From: Bacteroidota bacterium
Lineage (GTDB): Bacteria > Bacteroidota > Bacteroidia > Sphingobacteriales > Sphingobacteriaceae
Length of the DNA stretch: 32,809 nucleotides
Direction: 5' to 3'
Assembly: GCA_029851965.1 (NCBI GenBank)
Contig: JARKUW010000033.1
Coordinates: forward strand, 1-32,809
Each line of letters begins with the position of its first letter. The first letter of the stretch is position 1. The translations under genes and the position numbers were made by a program. Positions 3,991-17,021 of the stretch are shown here, piece by piece. The notes under the pieces were generated by a model, which saw nothing but the letters and a program-made list of their open reading frames with translations, was not told where the DNA came from and did no database searches.

Positions 3991-4794
3991 ATGCGCACAA
4001 AGTTTAGTTATTTTTTACTTTTGGCGGCCATCTTTGCCGGCTGTCAGGTTAACGAGTATAGTCCGAACCAAAAGTTCAATGAAAGATCTGCAACGGACGT
4101 CAATGCCCGTGAGATCGCCACACTGCCTAAAAAGGAACCTGGTGCCCACATCCGGATCGCCGTTTCAGGAGATACACAGCGGACCTATAAGGAAAGTCAG
4201 CTTTTTGTGGATCACATCAATGCACGAGATGATATAGATTTTGTGTTTCTCAATGGTGATATTTCCGATTTTGGGTTATTGCTGGAGTTTGACGGCGTGG
4301 AGAAAATCTATTCTACCTTGAAAGTTCCCTACATCGCGATTATTGGAAACCACGACCAGGTTGCCAATGGTTACGATGTCTACAAAAGAATGTTCGGCCC
4401 GGTAGACTTCACGTTCAATTATGCAGGTGTTAAGTTTGTTTGCCATGACTCCAACGGCCGGGAACATAACTTCAACGGTAAAATTCCGGATATGGATTTT
4501 CTTAGAAGCAATATGAAGCTGGAACCGGGGGTAAACCACCTGATTGCGATGTCGCATATTCCACCAATGGACAACGACTTCGACAGCAAGCTGAGTGCTC
4601 CGTATCAGGATTTGATCAATCAGACGCCGGGGGTACTTGCATCCATTCATTCGCACCAGCATTCTTCCAATATTATTTACAGCAACAATGGCAAGGGAGT
4701 GCCGATTATAATTACCAACGCTATTGTAAACCGATCCTATACACTTATTGATGTTGAAAATGATGTACTTACGGCCACACCTGTATCGTTTTAA
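3991..4794 (+). CDS. Calcineurin-like metallophosphoesterase, predicted lipoprotein
   Basis: Lipobox-like signal LLAAIFAGC. Metallophosphoesterase motifs SGDTQ, LNGDISD, IIGNHDQ and HSHQHS. The ORF track starts at 3979; the ATG at 3991 fits the signal peptide better. Confidence 0.85.
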   Translation: MRTKFSYFLLLAAIFAGCQVNEYSPNQKFNERSATDVNAREIATLPKKEPGAHIRIAVSGDTQRTYKESQLFVDHINARDDIDFVFLNGDISDFGLLLEFDGVEKIYSTLKVPYIAIIGNHDQVANGYDVYKRMFGPVDFTFNYAGVKFVCHDSNGREHNFNGKIPDMDFLRSNMKLEPGVNHLIAMSHIPPMDNDFDSKLSAPYQDLINQTPGVLASIHSHQHSSNIIYSNNGKGVPIIITNAIVNRSYTLIDVENDVLTATPVSF

Positions 4795-5365
4795 TGCTTT
4801 TATATTGCTGATGCTTACTGCTCCCCTGGCATTCGCTCAGCGTAAGACGGCGAATGCACTTGTGCCTGATAAAGTGATCACACAGTATGCAGGAAGTATC
4901 GGATACATGAGTTTGGGCCTGGGCTACGATTTGTTTCAGGAACGGACAGAACTCAGTTTTCACTATGGCTACGTACCGGAGGTGAAAGGAGGTGAGCTAC
5001 ATATTGCAGCACTTAAGTTTGAATACAAGCCATTTAAGCTGAAGATATCCGATGGGCTTGTGTTCCGGCCGGTGAACCCAGTAGTTTTTGGTTCCTATAC
5101 ATTTGGGAAAGCATTTGGATTAAGCTTTGATCGGGATCAGTATCCAAAAGGATATTATTTCTGGTCTCCGGCACTTAGAGGACATCTCGGTGCCACCTCA
5201 GAGCTGGAGATACTTGCAGATGCCTCGAGTTCCATCAAGTCAATTACCCTGTTTACCGAGGCAAATACAAATGATCTTTATCTGGTGAGCTGGTACGAAA
5301 ACCGCACGACAACCCCTTTCTATAAGATCTTCCACCTTGGCTTTGGCCTAAAGATGAACTTCTAA
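4763..5365 (+). CDS. Predicted outer-membrane/beta-barrel-like protein of unknown function
   Basis: Sec signal MYLRPHLYRFNAFILLMLTAPLAFAQ, alternating aromatic/polar strands, and C-terminal FHLGFGLKMNF ending in an aromatic residue. Overlaps the upstream metallophosphoesterase ORF end. Confidence 0.65.
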   Translation: MYLRPHLYRFNAFILLMLTAPLAFAQRKTANALVPDKVITQYAGSIGYMSLGLGYDLFQERTELSFHYGYVPEVKGGELHIAALKFEYKPFKLKISDGLVFRPVNPVVFGSYTFGKAFGLSFDRDQYPKGYYFWSPALRGHLGATSELEILADASSSIKSITLFTEANTNDLYLVSWYENRTTTPFYKIFHLGFGLKMNF

Positions 5366-5509: not shown

Positions 5510-7456
5510 ATGATAAAATCAAACGGCAAAAAGCGAGTTATCATCACCAATGTATCTCCAACCGTTGAATCGGGAAGATACACGGCGAAAGCGGTAACCG
5601 GAGATGAAATTACATTTACGGCGGATGTCTTCGGAGACGGACATGACGTCATAGCAGCAAGCATATATTTCAGGCAGCAAGGGCTTGATAACGTGGAAGA
5701 GCTTCCAATGACGCTCATCAATAATGATCACTGGGAAGTCGCCCATGTTTTCAATCAGACAGGGCGGTTTGAATTCTGGGTTGAAGGATGGGAAGATCAT
5801 TATGGCAACTGGACACACGGCCTGATCAAGAAATATGAAGCCGGACAGGATCTCACGGTAGAGCTTCAGATCGGCATTAATCTTATTCAAAAAGCCGCTG
5901 AATTTTCAGCTGCCAACCGGGAGGTACTGCTGCAATGGATCGAAAGGTTTAACCAGGCGGAAAGTGTCGCGGCCTCTGTATCCCTGGCCTTAGCTCCAGA
6001 ACTGGTCAAGCTGATGTATAGCTACCGGCAACCCGACATTATTACGGCTTCCGACTTTTATCCACTGGAAATCGAGCGAAAGAAAGCTGGATTCAGTAGT
6101 TGGTATGAGCTGTTTCCAAGATCTGCATCGGCCGAGGCCGGAAAACATGGAACTTTCAAGGATGTAATGAACCTGCTGCCGAGAGTAGCGCAGATGGGCT
6201 TTGATGTTTTGTATTTTCCGCCTATACATCCCATTGGGGAGAAAAACAGGAAAGGGAAAAACAATAGCCTTACGCCGGAGCCCGGCGAACCGGGGTCACC
6301 CTGGGCCATCGGGAACAGAAAGGGCGGGCATAAAGCGATCCATCCGGAGCTGGGTACGCTGCGCGACTTCAAGAAGTTGATTGCGGCGGCGAATAGCCTC
6401 GATATTGAGATTGCGATGGACATCGCTTTTCAGTGTGCGCCGGACCACCCCTATGTGAAAGAACATCCGGAGTGGTTTACCTGGCGGCCGGATGGCACTG
6501 TTCAGTATGCGGAGAACCCGCCAAAAAAATACGAAGATATTCTTCCTTTCAATTTTGAAACCGACGACTGGGAAAATCTGTGGGAGGAGCTGAAAAGTGT
6601 TATTGAATACTGGGTAGATGCCGGTATCCGGATATTCCGCATAGACAATCCACACACCAAGGCCTTTCGTTTCTGGGAATGGACGATCAATGAGATCCGG
6701 ACCAAGAACCCTGAAGTTTTATTTCTTGCAGAAGCGTTTACCCGCCCCAGGGTGATGGAGCGCCTCGCTAAAGCGGGCTTCAACCAGTCATATACTTACT
6801 TCACCTGGAGAAACAATAAAAAGGAGCTGGAAGAGTATATGCTGGAACTGACACAAACGGAGATGCGGTATTATTTCCGCCCCAATTTCTGGCCGAATAC
6901 ACCAGACATCCTTCCTCCGGCTTTAATTCACGGTGGCGAGAATGCGCACATCATGCGTCTGATACTTGCAGCAACGTTGTCTTCCAGCTACGGAATCTAT
7001 GGTCCGGTGTATGAATTCGGCATCAATACGCCTCATGGCGCAAAAGAGGAGTACGTGGACAATGAGAAATATGAGATCAGGCATTGGAACTGGAATCAAT
7101 ATACCCGGATAACCGAGCTTATTATCCGTATTAACCAGATCCGTAAAGAGAATGCAAGTTTACAAACCACCTGGAATGTAGCGTTCGCGGAAACAACAAA
7201 CGCCCAGATTATTTGTTACATCAAAACAGATCCGGCAACGGGGAACCGGCTGATTATCGCGGTGAACATGGACGTGCAGCATACGCAAAGTGCAATGGTC
7301 AGAATTCCGCTTGCTGAGCTGGACATTCTGCCCGGATCGTCGTTCCGTATACACGATCTGCTAAGTGGAGACAAATATACCTGGCAGGATGAATGGCAGT
7401 ATGTGGAGCTAAATCCATACTTAATGCCCGCACATATTTTTAGAATAGAATCATAA
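5510..7456 (+). CDS. glgE: Alpha-1,4-glucan:maltose-1-phosphate maltosyltransferase
   Basis: GH13-type motifs VLYFPPIHPIGEKNRKGKNN, IFRIDNPHTKAFRFWEW and FLAEAFTRPRVM plus an N-terminal beta-sandwich (FWVEGWEDHYGNWTHGL). First gene of a run with treS-mak and glgB. Confidence 0.95.
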   Translation: MIKSNGKKRVIITNVSPTVESGRYTAKAVTGDEITFTADVFGDGHDVIAASIYFRQQGLDNVEELPMTLINNDHWEVAHVFNQTGRFEFWVEGWEDHYGNWTHGLIKKYEAGQDLTVELQIGINLIQKAAEFSAANREVLLQWIERFNQAESVAASVSLALAPELVKLMYSYRQPDIITASDFYPLEIERKKAGFSSWYELFPRSASAEAGKHGTFKDVMNLLPRVAQMGFDVLYFPPIHPIGEKNRKGKNNSLTPEPGEPGSPWAIGNRKGGHKAIHPELGTLRDFKKLIAAANSLDIEIAMDIAFQCAPDHPYVKEHPEWFTWRPDGTVQYAENPPKKYEDILPFNFETDDWENLWEELKSVIEYWVDAGIRIFRIDNPHTKAFRFWEWTINEIRTKNPEVLFLAEAFTRPRVMERLAKAGFNQSYTYFTWRNNKKELEEYMLELTQTEMRYYFRPNFWPNTPDILPPALIHGGENAHIMRLILAATLSSSYGIYGPVYEFGINTPHGAKEEYVDNEKYEIRHWNWNQYTRITELIIRINQIRKENASLQTTWNVAFAETTNAQIICYIKTDPATGNRLIIAVNMDVQHTQSAMVRIPLAELDILPGSSFRIHDLLSGDKYTWQDEWQYVELNPYLMPAHIFRIES

Positions 7457-7469
7457 CCCAACACACCAT

Positions 7470-10400
7470 ATGGCTGAGCAAAACACTCCAATAGACGATA
7501 ACCTGCATTGGTATAAAGACGCGATTATATATGAACTTCACATTAAGGCCTTCCGCGATGGCAACGGGGATGGCATCGGGGATTTCCAGGGCCTTATAGA
7601 AAAGATACCTTACCTGGCTGACCTCGGTGTGACGGCCATATGGCTGTTGCCATTCTATCCATCGCCGCTAAGGGATGATGGCTACGATATTTCCGATTAC
7701 TACCACATTAATCCTTCGTATGGTGACATTAAACAATTTAAAGCCTTTTTAAAGGAAGCACATAAGCGAGGGTTACGGGTAATTACGGAGCTGGTCATTA
7801 ACCACACGTCTGACCAGCATCCCTGGTTTCAACGGGCCCGGCTGGCACCGAAAGGCTCCAAGCTGCGGGACTATTATGTGTGGACGGATGATCCGACCGA
7901 GTTTAAGGACGCCAGGATCATATTTCAGGATTATGAGACCTCAAACTGGACATGGGATCCAGTGGCCAAACAATACTTCTGGCACCGCTTCTTTCATCAT
8001 CAGCCGGATCTAAACTTCGCGAACCCGGTGGTTCAGCAAGAGGTATTTAAAATCATGGACTATTGGTGTAAGATGGGCGTTGACGGCTTCAGGCTGGATG
8101 CCGTGCCGTATCTGTTTGAAAGAAATGACACCAATTGTGAGAACTTACCGGAGACACATGATTTCCTGAAAAAGCTGAGGAAATATATAGATGACCACTA
8201 TCCAGGTACGCTTCTGCTTGCAGAGGCCAACATGTGGCCGGAAGATTCTGCAGCCTATTTTGGTGAGGGGGATGAGTGTCAGATGAACTATCATTTTCCG
8301 CTGATGCCACGGATGTTTATGTCTTTACAGATGGAAGACAGATACCCGATAACGGACATTTACGATCAGACACCGGCAATTCCGGAAACCTGCCAATGGG
8401 CAATTTTCCTTAGAAATCACGATGAGCTAACGCTGGAAATGGTGACGGATGAAGAGCGGGATTACATGTACAAAGTTTATGTGAAGGATCCAAAAGCCAG
8501 GATAAACCTGGGTATTCGACACCGGCTGGCACCATTGCTGGAAAATAACCGCCGGAAAATAGAACTGATGAACACCTTACTTTTCAGTTTGCCGGGAACG
8601 CCGGTGATCTACTATGGCGACGAGATCGGAATGGGTGATAATTTCTATCTCGGCGACCGCGATGGGGTACGTACGCCGATGCAGTGGCATTCCGATCGGA
8701 ATGCAGGCTTCTCTGCGGCCAATCCCCAACAATTGTATCTTCCGCTTATCCTGGACCCGCAATTCCACTACGAGTCCGTCAATGTCGAACTTCAGTCCAG
8801 AAATACATCATCGCTACTGTGGTGGATGAAGCGGGCAATTAATACCCGGAAAAAATACAAAGCGTTCGGACGCGGAGATTTGAAATTTGTACAAAGCGAA
8901 AATGCGAAGGTACTTGCGTTTACGCGGACCTACGAAGACCAGACCATGCTTGTCATCGCCAACCTCTCTAGATTTGCACAGGTCGCAGAGCTTCAGCTGG
9001 ACAGCTTCAAAGGCTATGTGCCGGTAGAGATACTAAGCAGAAACCGCTTTCCGATCGTGCGCGAAGATGTACCTTATTTCTTCACCCTCGGGGCCTATGC
9101 AACACAAAGCTTTATTTTAGAAAAGACACATTCAGAACTGGAGAATGACCATGAGCTGCACACACTGTCCCTGAGCAAGTGGAAAGACCTGTTGAAGCGG
9201 GAAGTGCTGGAAAAACTGGAGAATGAGATCCTGCCCAAATACATGATGCGCCTTCGCTGGTTTGGAGGCAAGGGCAGGGGCATGGAAACTGTAAAGATCA
9301 TTGATCATGCAACCATTCCAATGGAACAGAATCCAGCATTTGTCCTGCTGCTTGAGGTATCTTACCGTGACGGCCTGCCGGACATGTACCAACTTCCGGT
9401 CGCATGCGGAATGGGTGAGTTTTCATACAAGATCAAGGACAGTTGCCCGCAGTCGGTCATCGCCATGCTACAGCTGGATGGTGAAGATGTGGTACTGTAT
9501 GATGCGATTTACGGACTGGACTTTCAGCAGGCGGTAATCAATAGCATGGCACGGCAGCATACCCTGAACCAGGGCGGTTCAGAGCTCCTCTTTTCTGGAA
9601 ACAGGGCCTTACGAAAACATCTCGTGTTAAATCCGAAGACTAAACCACGGGTAATATCAGCCGAGCAAAGTAATACATCCATCACCTATGACAACGCTTT
9701 TTACCTGAAATTCTACAGGAAAGTGGACCGTGCCATCAATCCGGACGTGGAATTGAGCCGCTTTCTGACGGAGAGTGCCAAGTTCAAACATACCCCCGGC
9801 TACATTGGAGCGATCGAATGGAAGTTTGGGAAAGATAAGACCATGGTGCTCGGCATGATGCAGGAGATGGTCAGCAGCACGAGCGACGGATGGGAGTATA
9901 TGATAGATCGTCTGAATGATTTTAATGAAAAGATCCTTGCGCATCCGGATGCAGTTGCGGCTCCGCCGGAACTTGTAGGAACGTTGACCAATCCAGTTGC
10001 TTATGAAGAGATTCCAGAAACAATAAAGAGCTTGCTGGAGGCGACGGTCGCGGAACTGGCGACCATGCTGGGCAAACGGACGGGAGAGATGCATCTTGCT
10101 TTATCTTCAAATACCGATCAGGCTGCATTCCAGCCAGAGCCTTTCTCGCTGCACTACCAACGCTCGCTGTTTTCATCTTTGCAGTCATTGGTGCGGGTTG
10201 CCTTCCAGAGCCTGAGTAAGAATATGAAGTCACTCTCTCCGGCTGTTCAGGAGGAGGCCGCAGAAGTACTGAAGATGAAGGATGAGATCCTGAACATCAT
10301 GAAGCGGATTTACAGTAAAAAGATCGACGTTACAAAAATCAGGATCCATGGCGATTATCACCTGGGGCAGGTTTTGTTTACGGGTAAAGATTTTCTGATC

Positions 10401-10811
10401 CTTGATTTCGAAGGGGAGCCTTCGCGCAGCTACAGTGAAAGGCGATTGAAGTACTCGGCCCTTCGGGACGTCGCCGGTATGATCCGGTCCTTCCATTATG
10501 CCGCTTATGGCAGCCTGTTCCTCGACAACCAGATCCGGGAGGAAGATATTGTTACGTTGCTGCCTTATGTGCGGCAATGGTACCATTATATGAGCGGATT
10601 CTTTATACAGTCGTATCTGGACACCGTTGGTGAGGCGCCGATCGTTCCCGACAACAGGGGAGACCTGGAGATCCTGATGCAAACGTATCTTCTGCAAAAG
10701 GCGATATATGAATTGAATTATGAATTAAATAACAGACCCGACTGGGTGATTGTTCCTTTGCGCGGAATCAAAGCAATTGTAGAAAAAAACCGTAAAGTGA
10801 CGGTTCAATAA
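7470..10811 (+). CDS. treS: Trehalose synthase (maltose alpha-D-glucosyltransferase) fused to maltokinase
   Basis: N-terminal half: [83 protein letters not shown]. C-terminal half: [11 protein letters not shown] and [29 protein letters not shown] (maltokinase catalytic region). 1113 aa. Confidence 0.95.
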   Translation: [1113 protein letters not shown]

Positions 10812-12783
10812 TGGCATCTATGGCGAAAAACACGATAAAAACTGTTGCAAAAGTGGAAAGCGGCCCGGCCTGGTTTTCTTTGTTTTCTGATGAAGATATA
10901 CTGCTGTTCAAAACGGGGAAACACCGCACGCTTTTTAACAAGCTTGGCGCACACCCGGTTGAACACAATGGCGTGAAGGGCACCTATTTTGCGGTCTGGG
11001 CTCCAAATGCGAAGTACGTCAGCGTAGTTGGAAACTTCAATGGATGGGAACGCCGTGCAAATCCCATGCATGTACGTTGGGACAGCTCGGGCATCTGGGA
11101 ATGCTTCATTCCTGGGATTTACGGTGCAGAATACTACAAGTACTTTATAGATTCCCACACTGGTTATCAGGTGGAGAAAGGCGACCCTTATGCCTTCCAT
11201 TGTGAAACGCCTCCGCACACGGCCAGTGTGACCTGGGACCTGACCTATCAATGGAACGATGCGGACTGGATGGCACAACGCAAGGACAAGAATGTACTGC
11301 AGCAGCCCGTTTCTATTTATGAGCTGCACCTGGGGTCCTGGCGTAGGAAAAACGGAGAACAGCCCAACGAGTTTTTGACATACCGCGAACTGGCTGCCGA
11401 ACTTCCTGCATATTGCAGTTATATGAATTTTACTCACGTGGAGTTCATGCCCGTTATGGAACATCCATTCTACGGTTCATGGGGTTATCAAATCGTGGGT
11501 TTCTATGCACCAAGCAGCCGCTATGGTACAACACAGGACTTTATGTACCTGATTGATCAGCTGCATCAGGCTGGCATAGGCGTTATTCTGGATTGGGTAC
11601 CCTCTCATTTTCCGACCGACGAGCACGGACCGGGATATTTCGACGGTACTCATTTGTACGAATACGAAGATCCACGCAGGGGGTTCCATCCGGACTGGAA
11701 GAGCTTCATTTTTAATCTTGGGAGAAATGAGGTCAGGGCTTTCCTGATCTCAAATGCTGTATTCTGGCTGGAAAAGTATCACATTGATGGTTTAAGGGTA
11801 GATGCGGTGGCATCCATGTTGTATCTGGATTACTCCCGGAATGAAGGGGAGTGGCTTCCGAACATCTATGGAGGTAGAGAAAACCTGGAATCGATCAGCT
11901 TTCTTCAGGAGTTTAATGAAGTGATACATGAGCGACATCTGATGTATTTACTGTTGCCGAGGAATCTACATCCTGGCCGGGCGTGACGCACCCGGTTGTC
12001 AATGGTGGCTTGGGCTTCGACATGAAATGGATGATGGGATGGATGCACGACACGCTTGGTTATCTCGAGAACCCTACGGTCTACCGGAAATACCATCAAG
12101 GCCAGCTGACCTTTAGTCTGGTGTACGCCTTTTCTGAAAAGTTCATGCTTCCTTTGTCGCACGATGAAGTGGTTTATGGGAAAGGCTCTTTGATTAATAA
12201 GATGCCTGGCGACAACTGGCAGCAGTTCGCGAATCTCCGTTTGCTGTATGGCTACATGTATGGCCATCCCGGTGCTAAAATGATATTTATGGGCGGCGAA
12301 TTTGCGCAGCGTCATGAGTGGCAGCACGACTACAGTCTGGATTGGCATGAAAATAACAATCCCGATCACCAGGGGATACAGCGCGTCGTACGTGATTTGA
12401 ATAAGTTCTATAAGGATCATCCTGCACTGTATGAAAACAACTTCTCGTCGGAGGGTTTTGAGTGGATCAATGCCGATGATGCAGCGCACAGCGTTATCGC
12501 ATGGATCCGGAAGGCAGAAGATGAACAGCTGATTTTTATTGCGAACTTTAGTCCGGTGGTGTGGAATAATTACCGGGTAGGGGTGCCGAAGTTGGGATTT
12601 TATCAGGAAGTGTTCAATACTGATAACCTGTATTATGGTGGAAGCGATCAGTTGAACGCAGGACGGCTGGAAACATCACCGATTCCGTACAATGGAAAGA
12701 CGCATTCCTTATCGTTAACACTACCGCCATTGGGCATGATCATACTTCAATTTAACGATACTTACAATTGGTATAAGCCTTAA
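10811..12783 (+). pseudogene. glgB: 1,4-alpha-glucan branching enzyme, split by a 1-nt frameshift at about 11939 (genuine lesion or sequencing error)
   Basis: ORF 10811..11986 carries the CBM48 domain and the GH13 core to DGLRVDAVASMLYLDYSR...[13 protein letters not shown] 11983..12783 continues with [32 protein letters not shown] and MGGEFAQ. Reading the -1 frame across 11938..11985 restores [20 protein letters not shown]. The start overlaps the treS stop (TAATG). Confidence 0.92.
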
Positions 12784-12813: not shown

Positions 12814-14466
12814 CTACATTTTATACATTTTCTCGTAATACTCATTGGCGAGGCGGCCTGCTTCGAAAGCTGGTACAACGTCTGCTGCGGCCTGCTTCAG
12901 GATCTGCAGCCAGGCTGCTTTGTCTCTGTAGTACATGGGAAGAACGGTACGCTCCAGGGTGTTCATCAGGTTTTCATTTTCGATCTTATCTTTTTCGTCC
13001 ACAGGTAAGGAATCTGCTGCAGGCTCGATGATAAAGCAGTTTTCAAGCGGCTTAGCAAATTCAGGTACCCAGCCATCTGGTATGGATAAGTTTATCGCAC
13101 CGTTCATTGCTGCGGCCATCCCGCTGGTTCCGGATGCTTCACGATACATTCGGGGATTATTCAGCCAAACATCTGCACCCTTCTTGAGGTAAGCGGAGAG
13201 GTCAAGCTCATATCCCGTCAGGACGGCACAGTTCTTAAAGGGACGTGCGCGGTTGATGATGTGGTTGAAGAGGCCAATGGCTTCCATGTCTTTCGGGTAA
13301 GGCTTTCCTGCCCAGATCAGCTGCACAGGGAACTCCGCGTTGTTGATCAGCCTGGTAAAGCGTTCCCAATCCTGCATCATCAGATCCGCACGTTTATACC
13401 CCGCAAAGCGCCTTGCCCAAACGATGGTAAGGACATTTTCGTCAAACAGCTTTCCACATTGGTCTGCAACGATCTTAAAGAGTTCGGCTTTCATCTCTTT
13501 TTTACGGCTGGTAATCGCGGTATCATCGTTACCGGCAATTGCATCATCGAAAACGGGATCTTTCCAGTAGGTTTTATTTTGCGCATTGGTGATCTCGGTG
13601 ATCTCACATACACCCGGATTACTTCCCCACATCTGGCGTGCAACTTCCCCGTGAAGGACGGAGACTCCATTGGCTTTACGTGCGAATTTTAGTGCACCCA
13701 GGGTATAGTTGAAGTCGTGACCGTCCATTCCTAAAATGTACTTCACTTCATGCTCCTGCAAGTGGTAAAAGAAAGACATCTCCTTAAGCAGCGCGTAGCT
13801 GTGCGACTCGTTTCCGGCCATTTCAGGTGTATGGGTGGTGAAGACAACGCGCTTTTTAACCTCATCAAGATTCCTGAATTTGGCATAGAGGTAGAAATTC
13901 AAGGGAACGGCATGGCCTTCATTCATGTGATAGACATCAGGCGTGAGCTCCAGCTGATCCAGCAGGATCGCGCCGCCAATGCCCAAAATGATGCTCTGTG
14001 CAATGCGGGTCGATTCATTGGCGTCGTAAAGGTTGTTGGTGATCGAACGGGACAATACATCATTCTCCGGAATGTCTGTACTCAACAGGAACACTGGTGC
14101 AGACTTGAACGTTTCCGGTTTAAGCAGCCAGACCTTCACCCTTACCGGGGTATCGTGGACCGGAACTGTAAAAACCAGGCCCGTATCCTGCAGATACGAG
14201 TAGTCTTTCTGAACGAAATCCGGCTTCATCTGTGCATGTTCGTCCCTTACCTGTTCATAATAGCCATATTTCCACAGCATTCCAATGCCAATAAGGTTCT
14301 GCTTGAGTTCGTAGGCGCTTCTAAGATGGGAGCCGGCCAGAAAACCCAGGCCACCGCTGTAAATTTTGAGCGCCTGATCTATGGCAAACTCCATAGAAAA
14401 GTAAGCAACGGAGCGGGCGTATTTTTCGTCGGGTTCATACCCGAATATTTCTTGTCTGGTAAGCAT
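12814..14466 (-). CDS. Alpha-glucan phosphorylase family protein (short GT35-type, TIGR02094-like)
   Basis: VAYFSMEFAIDQALKIYSGGLGFLAGSHLRSAYEL, VYHMNEGHAVPLNF, VVFTTHTPEMAGNE, ARRFAGYKRADLMM and MYREASGTSGMAAAMNGAINLSIPDGW. The residue expected to be the PLP-binding Lys is Ala (see findings). Confidence 0.85.
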   Translation of the reverse strand: MLTRQEIFGYEPDEKYARSVAYFSMEFAIDQALKIYSGGLGFLAGSHLRSAYELKQNLIGIGMLWKYGYYEQVRDEHAQMKPDFVQKDYSYLQDTGLVFTVPVHDTPVRVKVWLLKPETFKSAPVFLLSTDIPENDVLSRSITNNLYDANESTRIAQSIILGIGGAILLDQLELTPDVYHMNEGHAVPLNFYLYAKFRNLDEVKKRVVFTTHTPEMAGNESHSYALLKEMSFFYHLQEHEVKYILGMDGHDFNYTLGALKFARKANGVSVLHGEVARQMWGSNPGVCEITEITNAQNKTYWKDPVFDDAIAGNDDTAITSRKKEMKAELFKIVADQCGKLFDENVLTIVWARRFAGYKRADLMMQDWERFTRLINNAEFPVQLIWAGKPYPKDMEAIGLFNHIINRARPFKNCAVLTGYELDLSAYLKKGADVWLNNPRMYREASGTSGMAAAMNGAINLSIPDGWVPEFAKPLENCFIIEPAADSLPVDEKDKIENENLMNTLERTVLPMYYRDKAAWLQILKQAAADVVPAFEAGRLANEYYEKMYKM

Positions 14467-14971: not shown

Positions 14972-16141
14972 ATGGGAGTATTATCAAAGGATGAGCTCGC
15001 CGAGCTAACCAGTTATGAGGCGGATTGTTGTGTATCCATCTTCATGCCGGCACACAGCTCCGGAGTAGAAGTTAATAACCAGCATGATGCAATTGTTCTG
15101 AAGAACAATCTGCAGTCTGCGAGAAAGATGTTGCTTGACAAGGGAAAGAATCAGCGAACAGTAGAGACCATCCTACAGGAAGGTTTCAAACTGGTTGATG
15201 ATCGGGAATTCTGGAACAGCCAGTCGGAGGGACTGGCGCTCTTTATGGCGGAAGGTTTTTTCAAGATTATAAAAATGCCTTTCAAAGCAAAAGAAGAGCG
15301 CTACATTAATTCGACATTTTACATTGTTCCCTTACTGCCGATGACCTCGGAGAACGAGCATTTTTACCTATTGCTGCTTAGTAAGAAAGATGCGAATATT
15401 TATCGTGGAGATGCTTTCGGAATGGAGCTTTTGGAAATCGAAGGATTACCAAACGGCATGGACGATGTCATCCATTTTGAAGAGAAAAATGCACGGCAGA
15501 CGATGCGTCGCGCGGGCGGAGGTGCAGGCCGGGATGCAATAACTGGTGGTGGAAACTACCATGGTCATGGTACCGGGCTTGCAGAGGAGCCGGAATACAT
15601 ATCGCAGTATCTGAAGGAAGTAGACCAAACGTTATGGACGGAGCTTTTGTCAAATGAAAAGGCACCACTGATTCTTGCGGGTACAGAAGCTATTGCCGGA
15701 TCCTACCGCCTGATCTCGAAGTACAAAAATGTGGTTGAAAAGGTTATTACCGGTAATTTCGATCATGAAGACAAGAGTGTCATTTACCAGAAGGTGAAGG
15801 AGTTGGCGGCGCCTATATTTGAGGAAAATACCCGTAAGGCATTGAATGCTTACTATGAAAACTCAACCGGTGCCCTCACGTCTTCAATTCCTGAAGATGT
15901 CATTCCAGCAAGCTTCTATAGTCAGATCTCCGACCTCTTTGTGGTCAAAGATGAACACATATGGGGCACGTTTGATGAGGTCTCCAACGAGCTTAAAATA
16001 CACGAGGAGCCTCAGGAAGGTGACACCTGCCTGATCAATAAGGCGGTTGTGAAAACCATAAAGAACGGCGGGTCCGTTCACCTGATGCAGCGTGATAAAA
16101 TGCCCGCTGACAGTAAAGTTGCTGCTTTCATGAGATTTTAA
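14972..16141 (+). CDS. baeRF-like protein (bacterial archaeo-eukaryotic release factor family, eRF1-related)
   Basis: N-terminal YEADCCVSIFMPAHSSGVEVNNQHDAIVLKNNLQSARKML, central FYLLLLSKKDANIYRGD, Gly-rich loop GGGAGRDAITGGGNYHGHGTG, then PLILAGTEAIAGSYRLISKYKNVV and a C-terminal ...GSVHLMQRDKMPADSKVAAFMRF resembling baeRF family proteins. Recognised by eye only. Confidence 0.7.
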   Translation: MGVLSKDELAELTSYEADCCVSIFMPAHSSGVEVNNQHDAIVLKNNLQSARKMLLDKGKNQRTVETILQEGFKLVDDREFWNSQSEGLALFMAEGFFKIIKMPFKAKEERYINSTFYIVPLLPMTSENEHFYLLLLSKKDANIYRGDAFGMELLEIEGLPNGMDDVIHFEEKNARQTMRRAGGGAGRDAITGGGNYHGHGTGLAEEPEYISQYLKEVDQTLWTELLSNEKAPLILAGTEAIAGSYRLISKYKNVVEKVITGNFDHEDKSVIYQKVKELAAPIFEENTRKALNAYYENSTGALTSSIPEDVIPASFYSQISDLFVVKDEHIWGTFDEVSNELKIHEEPQEGDTCLINKAVVKTIKNGGSVHLMQRDKMPADSKVAAFMRF

Positions 16142-16157: not shown

Positions 16158-16190
16158 TAAGAAAAGCTGCCCCAAGGGCAGCTTTTCTTA
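16158..16190. terminator. Probable bidirectional terminator between convergent baeRF-like and ThuA-like genes
   Basis: Perfect 15-bp inverted repeat TAAGAAAAGCTGCCC-CAA-GGGCAGCTTTTCTTA, GC-rich core with T-rich flank. It overlaps the stop codon of the minus-strand gene. Confidence 0.85.
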
Positions 16191-17021
16191 TTTCCGGGAA
16201 GTATTTCCCAGCCACAGCAATGCATTGAGGATAAATCTATTTTGATCCGCATTGTCAAAGGTAAAAGACAGCTCTTTCTTGCTGTTGTGTTCGTAATCGA
16301 TGTCGTTGTGGCCCATGTTCATGTAGATCATTTTGTAGTTCTTATTGGACCAGGCGACAGGGTAGTCGCCATTGTGCCAGATCTCGCTCTGCTTTGGGCC
16401 GGTTCCTAAAGGAAAGCTGGAGGGATCAATGGACAGGAGTATTTCAATGTCTTTGTTTTTTCGCAGGTCGTTCGTCCAGCGGTACCATTCATTGGGTGAA
16501 GACTTGAAGGTCTTCGCGGTTTCTTTAAGGGCTGAATGTTTCGGGCTTTCATTTCGCAGAGTGGCAGAAGTTGGTCTCCAGGTATTACTCCGGTAAGAGC
16601 CTGATCCGAGAAAAGTCTCATGATACCAGCTCCAGTTCTGCGGATATGTAGAGTTGTCCAATGCGAAAGCAGAGAAGTGAAATCCCATCCATGCACCCCC
16701 CTGATCCATATATTGCTTAAAGGCAGCGCGCTGATCTGTATCTTCGGGACGGGTATCCAGAAACAACACCACCTGATATTTCGCCAGAAAGGCTGCATTC
16801 AGATTGTTCCAGTTGGAGGTGGTGTCAAATTCGAAGTTATTCTTTACAGCAGTTGCCATAAACCAGCGGTTTGCCTCATGCACAAAACTGATGTGCGCCT
16901 GGTCGTTTTTAGCTGTGAAAAACGCGATGGCTTTGAAAGCTGAACTGCGCGGTTGTGCGGAAATTGAAACAAAGCAAATGAGCAAAAGCCCCGTAAGTAG
17001 AAGTTGAAGGTGCTTAACCAT
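16188..17021 (-). CDS. ThuA-like domain protein, secreted
   Basis: Signal peptide MVKHLQLLLTGLLLICFVSISAQ. ThuA-like AKYQVVLFLDTRPEDTDQRAAFKQYMDQGGAWMGFHFSAF, PVAWSNKNYKMIYMNMGHNDIDYEH and RFILNALLWLGN. Confidence 0.85.
   Translation of the reverse strand: MVKHLQLLLTGLLLICFVSISAQPRSSAFKAIAFFTAKNDQAHISFVHEANRWFMATAVKNNFEFDTTSNWNNLNAAFLAKYQVVLFLDTRPEDTDQRAAFKQYMDQGGAWMGFHFSAFALDNSTYPQNWSWYHETFLGSGSYRSNTWRPTSATLRNESPKHSALKETAKTFKSSPNEWYRWTNDLRKNKDIEILLSIDPSSFPLGTGPKQSEIWHNGDYPVAWSNKNYKMIYMNMGHNDIDYEHNSKKELSFTFDNADQNRFILNALLWLGNTSRK

Follow-up and report, generated by a model that had tools for sequence, protein, structure and literature searches.

A branch of Bacteroidota glucan phosphorylase homologs has lost the PLP-binding lysine and carries a new lysine on the preceding helix

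Genes at the locus

The window (the whole stretch of DNA that we analyzed, 32,809 nucleotides) encodes a homolog of the GT35 / TIGR02094 alpha-glucan phosphorylases on its minus strand, at 12814..14466. The 550-amino-acid protein scores 435.6 bits against TIGR02094, whose curated cutoff is 191.7 bits, and it matches PF00343 above the cutoff; its AF2 model (see below) agrees with this assignment. As we will describe, it lacks the lysine that binds pyridoxal phosphate (PLP). The gene is convergent with three plus-strand genes: glgE, which encodes a maltose-1-phosphate maltosyltransferase (5510..7456; PF11896 and PF21702); a fusion of treS and maltokinase (7470..10811; TIGR02456 and TIGR02457, both above the cutoff); and glgB, which encodes a branching enzyme (10811..12783). 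The glgB gene is split into two open reading frames (10811-11986 and 11983-12783), and TIGR01515 spans both of them. The split is due to a single frameshift within 11930-11990, which could have arisen during assembly or be a genuine mutation; an intact second copy of glgB is found in another part of the genome (G000:C233). The genome also encodes two homologs of GlgE, namely the one in the window and another at G000:C115:5293-5838. Upstream of glgE is an open reading frame of 205 amino acids (4748-5365) that has no match in Pfam or NCBIfam.

On the other side, the divergent neighbor (14972..16141, plus strand; PF18849) is a homolog of baeRF-type ribosome hibernation factors, and a similar gene adjoins the ortholog at another locus (L011). 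This is followed by a gene for a ThuA-domain protein (16188..17021, minus strand; PF06283), which recurs beside the Lys-less phosphorylase in several relatives (L028, L033, L036, and L037) as well as in the window.

The PLP lysine is missing across a subfamily

From 13143 down to 13057, the minus strand reads REASGTSGMAAAMNGAINLSIPDGWVPEF, which corresponds to residue 442 onward of the protein. The protein also contains REASGTSGMAAAMNG, which includes Ala451 (codon GCC, 13114..13116, minus strand). We assign position 451 to the PLP Schiff-base lysine because it lies eight residues after Glu443, which is the same spacing as between Glu754 and Lys762 of potato Pho1 (PMC11465516), and because the alignment to solved phosphorylases has no gaps and places Ala451 under the lysine of GNMK or SGEK. 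The initial annotation had claimed that alanine replaces the PLP-binding lysine in a GT35 homolog; the codon, the spacing, and the ungapped alignment all agree with this.

We collected homologs from genomes of the Sphingobacteriales, Chitinophagales, Cytophagales, and Saprospirales, from a survey of the phylum, and from plasmid records of six phyla. In a branch of 84 proteins from Bacteroidota, position 451 is threonine (71 proteins), alanine (8), or serine (5), so that no member has the Schiff-base lysine eight residues after the glutamate. All 61 of the other TIGR02094 proteins that we examined, which represent six phyla, have lysine at this position. (We will call these the Lys-type proteins.) This shows that the loss is fixed across the subfamily. 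The possibility of a sequencing error or of a single decayed gene is ruled out, as the column is not lysine in 84 sequences from many genera. The most divergent members of the branch are about 51% identical to the window protein, and 29 of 29 branch members matched the TIGR02094 model at 1e-3 or better.

We also built a tree from which columns 428 (see below) and 451 were left out, with 24 rows to represent the 84 Lys-less proteins. A single branch with full support separates these proteins from the Lys-type proteins. Because the classical GT35 enzymes also carry the lysine, it is most simply the ancestral state. Lys-less phosphorylases are found on plasmids of Pontibacter and Runella as well (L138 and L139), which implies that the gene moves between replicons.

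The rest of the active site is conserved

The initial annotation also stated that the phosphate-contacting region is retained, and the RRxxxYKR motif is indeed present. In the segment ARRFAGYKR (13390..13416, minus strand), R352, R353, Y357, and K358 correspond to K568, R569, Y573, and K574 of rabbit muscle glycogen phosphorylase (rmGP), which are ligands of the PLP phosphate and the substrate phosphate. R353, Y357, and K358 are invariant in all 145 sequences, and residue 352 is arginine or lysine in all of them. Glu443 (13138..13140, minus strand), which is the equivalent of the glucose-binding active-site glutamate (E672 of rmGP), is also invariant (145/145), as are H212, N294, G446, and T447. 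The catalytic His, Asn, Arg, Lys, and Glu (rmGP H377, N484, R569, K574, and E672) are thus conserved in 84/84 members of the branch. Ser445 is kept in both types, and Y22, W301, Y419, and N436 are retained in nearly all sequences of both types; these five, together with N294, R352, R353, Y357, K358, E443, G446, and T447, are the residues that we equate with the binding site of PLP and the substrate.

The AF2 model of the window protein is confident (mean pLDDT of 93.8), with slightly lower values at the Glu loop. The nearest solved structures are of the glycogen phosphorylase of Segatella copri (TM scores of 0.90 to 20yr and 0.89 to 9l6i), and the best 50 matches in the PDB are all GT35 phosphorylases, so the model has the GT-B phosphorylase fold.

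A reciprocal lysine on the preceding helix

Every member of the branch (84/84) has a lysine at position 428 (codon AAG, 13183..13185, minus strand), on the helix that precedes the one with position 451. None of the 61 Lys-type proteins do: they have valine (46), isoleucine (7), threonine (6), tyrosine (1), or phenylalanine (1). Across the 145 sequences, the two positions are reciprocal with zero exceptions: T/A/S451 occurs with K428 (84 times) and K451 occurs with V/I/T/Y/F428 (61 times). The branch has five invariant lysines, and K428 is the only one that replaces a residue that is non-basic in the Lys-type proteins; positions 326, 358, and 388 are basic or shared in the Lys-type proteins, and the lysine at 322 replaces arginine or histidine. 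Using a degenerate DNA pattern, we found no intermediates with both lysines (K428 and K451) in 396 Bacteroidota genomes. As a positive control, we changed the codon at 451 to T/A/S/P; the pattern then matched 85 loci, covering nearly all of the branch loci, which indicates that it works. Because the swap falls on one branch of the tree, the reciprocity reflects a single historical event and has little power as covariation, and about 30 further columns also separate the branch cleanly from the Lys-type proteins.

Within the helix (residues 421-430), K428 lies on the conserved face along with positions 420, 421, 424, and 427; the variable positions are 422, 425, 426, and 429. Residue 424 aligns with A653 of rmGP, and residues 420 and 421 align with R649 and V650, all of which we take to line PLP. 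(None of the open-access papers that we searched listed the PLP contacts by residue number.) Residue 426 aligns with K655 of rmGP, which belongs to a shallow groove on the protein surface, at the quercetin site (PMC11465516), so by helical geometry, residues 424 and 428 should face inward. We infer that K428 points into the PLP pocket. According to the initial annotation, a neighboring lysine in this pocket would refute its proposal that the protein may not depend on PLP. Given its distribution (84/84 versus 0/61) and its location in the neighboring helix, on the side that is conserved, K428 is a strong candidate for such a lysine, although its placement in the pocket is a prediction.

Genomic context points to a phosphorylase role

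The branch protein is present in 15 of the 61 genomes from the genus, and no other match to PF00343 was found in those 15. In our sample of the phylum, too, branch members are the only GT35 proteins in their genomes. GlgA was found above the cutoff in 59 of the 61 genus genomes (the window's genome, which is 79% complete, is one of the two exceptions) and GlgB was found in all 61. Since these enzymes are nearly universal in the genus and no other GT35 accompanies the branch protein, synthesis is accounted for, and without the branch protein there would be no enzyme for phosphorolysis.

In several genomes of Mucilaginibacter (the same genus), the gene order is P-type ATPase, Usp, phosphoketolase, and branch protein, and in two of three such loci, a further short open reading frame that resembles a stress protein comes next. 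(The phosphoketolase and the branch protein aside, these genes were named from their sequence and position.) Across the genus, phosphoketolase was found in 11 of the 15 genomes with the branch protein versus 8 of the 46 without it (Fisher p = 0.00013, uncorrected for relatedness). The Lys-type gene of Criblamydia, which is chlamydial, lies after a phosphoketolase gene, and a DUF1622 neighbor is common to Lys-type and Thr-type proteins in different phyla. Because these neighbors are shared with Lys-type proteins, they point to the branch doing the same job, which is to supply glucose 1-phosphate.

We also considered whether the branch is closely tied to the GlgE pathway. GlgE was found in just 3 of the 61 genus genomes, and all three encode the branch protein (p = 0.013), which is suggestive only. 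A universally conserved operon is ruled out, as the neighbors of the branch gene differ by lineage. On Runella rosea plasmid unnamed6, 30 bp separate the Lys-less phosphorylase from a downstream gene of the pyridoxamine 5'-phosphate oxidase family (L139:5642-6082).

How might the branch proteins function?

Our preferred reading, which is tentative and which we give a little short of an even chance, is that the branch proteins are working phosphorylases whose PLP anchor has moved from position 451, with K428 as the likeliest destination. The tether would leave the helix after the Glu loop, where 451 is now Thr, Ala, or Ser, for K428 on the preceding, adjacent helix. The cofactor would then be held from the neighboring wall of the pocket, K428 would form the aldimine with PLP, and the enzyme would phosphorolyse glucan. 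Moving the anchor should be chemically tolerable, since in glycogen phosphorylase the aldehyde end of PLP serves mostly to hold the cofactor, and it is the phosphate that carries out the chemistry. The PLP phosphate acts in acid/base catalysis, close to the substrate phosphate (PMC6411801), and in E. coli MalP it is held by conserved lysines (PMC11046441). Since the phosphate ligands are retained in the branch, it is simplest to suppose that these proteins still use PLP and have moved its tether to K428.

If the chemistry is done by the phosphate and not by the aldimine (PMC6411801), then PLP or another phosphate compound might instead be bound non-covalently, with K428 only filling space or balancing charge. 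The conservation of the phosphate and ring pocket fits this reading as well, and the small residues at 451 leave room. But losing the tether should reduce the affinity for the cofactor, and the strict conservation of lysine at 428 (84/84, never Arg or Gln) is left unexplained, so we consider this unlikely. We give similarly low weight to the idea that PLP was lost and that these are PLP-free GT-B enzymes, either NDP-glucose-dependent glucan synthases or phosphorylases that use Pi directly, with a nucleotide or phosphate in the cofactor site. A proto-GT35 enzyme that used NDP-sugars has been proposed (PMC11046441), and the neighboring glgE, treS, and glgB form a synthesis operon. Also, when single sequences are scored against GlgA, 23 of 29 branch members exceed the threshold versus 5 of 29 Lys-type proteins (medians of 29 and 6 bits, respectively). 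This apparently stronger kinship to GlgA is confined to the single-sequence scores: profile to profile, the branch and the Lys-type proteins are equally similar to GlgA. Furthermore, the lysine of GlgA's KTGGL motif is absent (Y36, as in Lys-type proteins), residue 352 is basic, which is the phosphorylase state (GlgA has serine here), and most of the branch-bearing genomes that we checked encode a full-length GlgA and would otherwise be missing a phosphorylase.

The initial annotation raised the possibility of a binding or regulatory protein. A pseudophosphorylase that has no catalytic activity and instead binds glucan or controls glycogen enzymes might account for the loss of a residue that is considered essential, and also for the patchy presence of the gene (15/61 genus genomes). 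This is improbable because all of the other catalytic residues are invariant in the 84 sequences, which diverge to as little as about 51% identity with the window protein; also, we did not find an active GT35 that could be its partner in the genomes that we checked. Overall, the PLP lysine is indeed absent throughout the subfamily, as the initial annotation suspected for this protein, while its suggestion that the subfamily may not be PLP-dependent is not demonstrated: K428 is a strong candidate anchor, and the gene context favors a role as a phosphorylase, as does the fact that no other GT35 was found in the genomes that we checked.

Implications

To our knowledge, all GT35 enzymes are regarded as having the PLP lysine, and we found no prior description of a Lys-less GT35 in the open-access papers that we searched. 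Judging from the alignments, the whole subfamily has truly lost the residue that is taken to define GT35 and has gained another lysine reciprocally. This large, natural set of proteins makes it possible to test if the covalent anchor can move and if an anchor is needed at all. One can also test whether a phosphorylase is able to return to the use of nucleotide sugars, a point that is relevant to how the GT-B fold acquired PLP. There is a small chance that the branch consists of extant GT35 enzymes that do without PLP and use NDP-sugar (or Pi itself) in the vacated cofactor site; if so, it would represent the proposed NDP-sugar-dependent ancestor of glycogen phosphorylase in living form, or a return to it. 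Branch genes are labeled glgP in public records despite the absence of the defining residue.

Comparison with known systems

The closest known proteins are the Lys-type members of TIGR02094, which include the Segatella copri glycogen phosphorylase (9l6i and 20yr) and proteins from cyanobacteria, alphaproteobacteria, chlamydiae, and Deinococcota. They share the fold and H212, N294, R352, R353, K358, and E443 with the branch, and the chlamydial member shares the phosphoketolase context. They differ in having K451 and a non-lysine at 428, where the branch has T/A/S451 and K428, and at the other branch-specific columns. The classical GT35 enzymes (rabbit muscle glycogen phosphorylase and E. coli MalP; TIGR02093) also resemble the branch in their GT-B fold, EASGT loop, and K/RR...YKR phosphate motif. 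But they are about 800 amino acids long instead of about 550, they are just ~15-18% identical, and the branch lacks the PLP lysine at the canonical site.

GlgA (GT5) has the GT-B fold as well, with a glutamate and an R...K motif at equivalent places, but its similarity to the branch is remote and at the level of profiles. The window protein scores 39.6 bits against TIGR02095 (GlgA), whose cutoff is 328 bits. In place of the KTGGL motif of the ADP-glucose site, it has Y36-S-G-G-L, and it has the phosphorylase-type R352 instead of serine, along with the HTP and EASGT motifs. The second acidic residue of the EX7E motif of NDP-sugar-dependent GT-B enzymes would be at position 451, which is Thr, Ala, or Ser in the branch. 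A possible parallel is lysine relocation in other families: in WNK kinases, whose fold and chemistry are different from those of the branch, the functional lysine lies on a neighboring element and the active site is kept.
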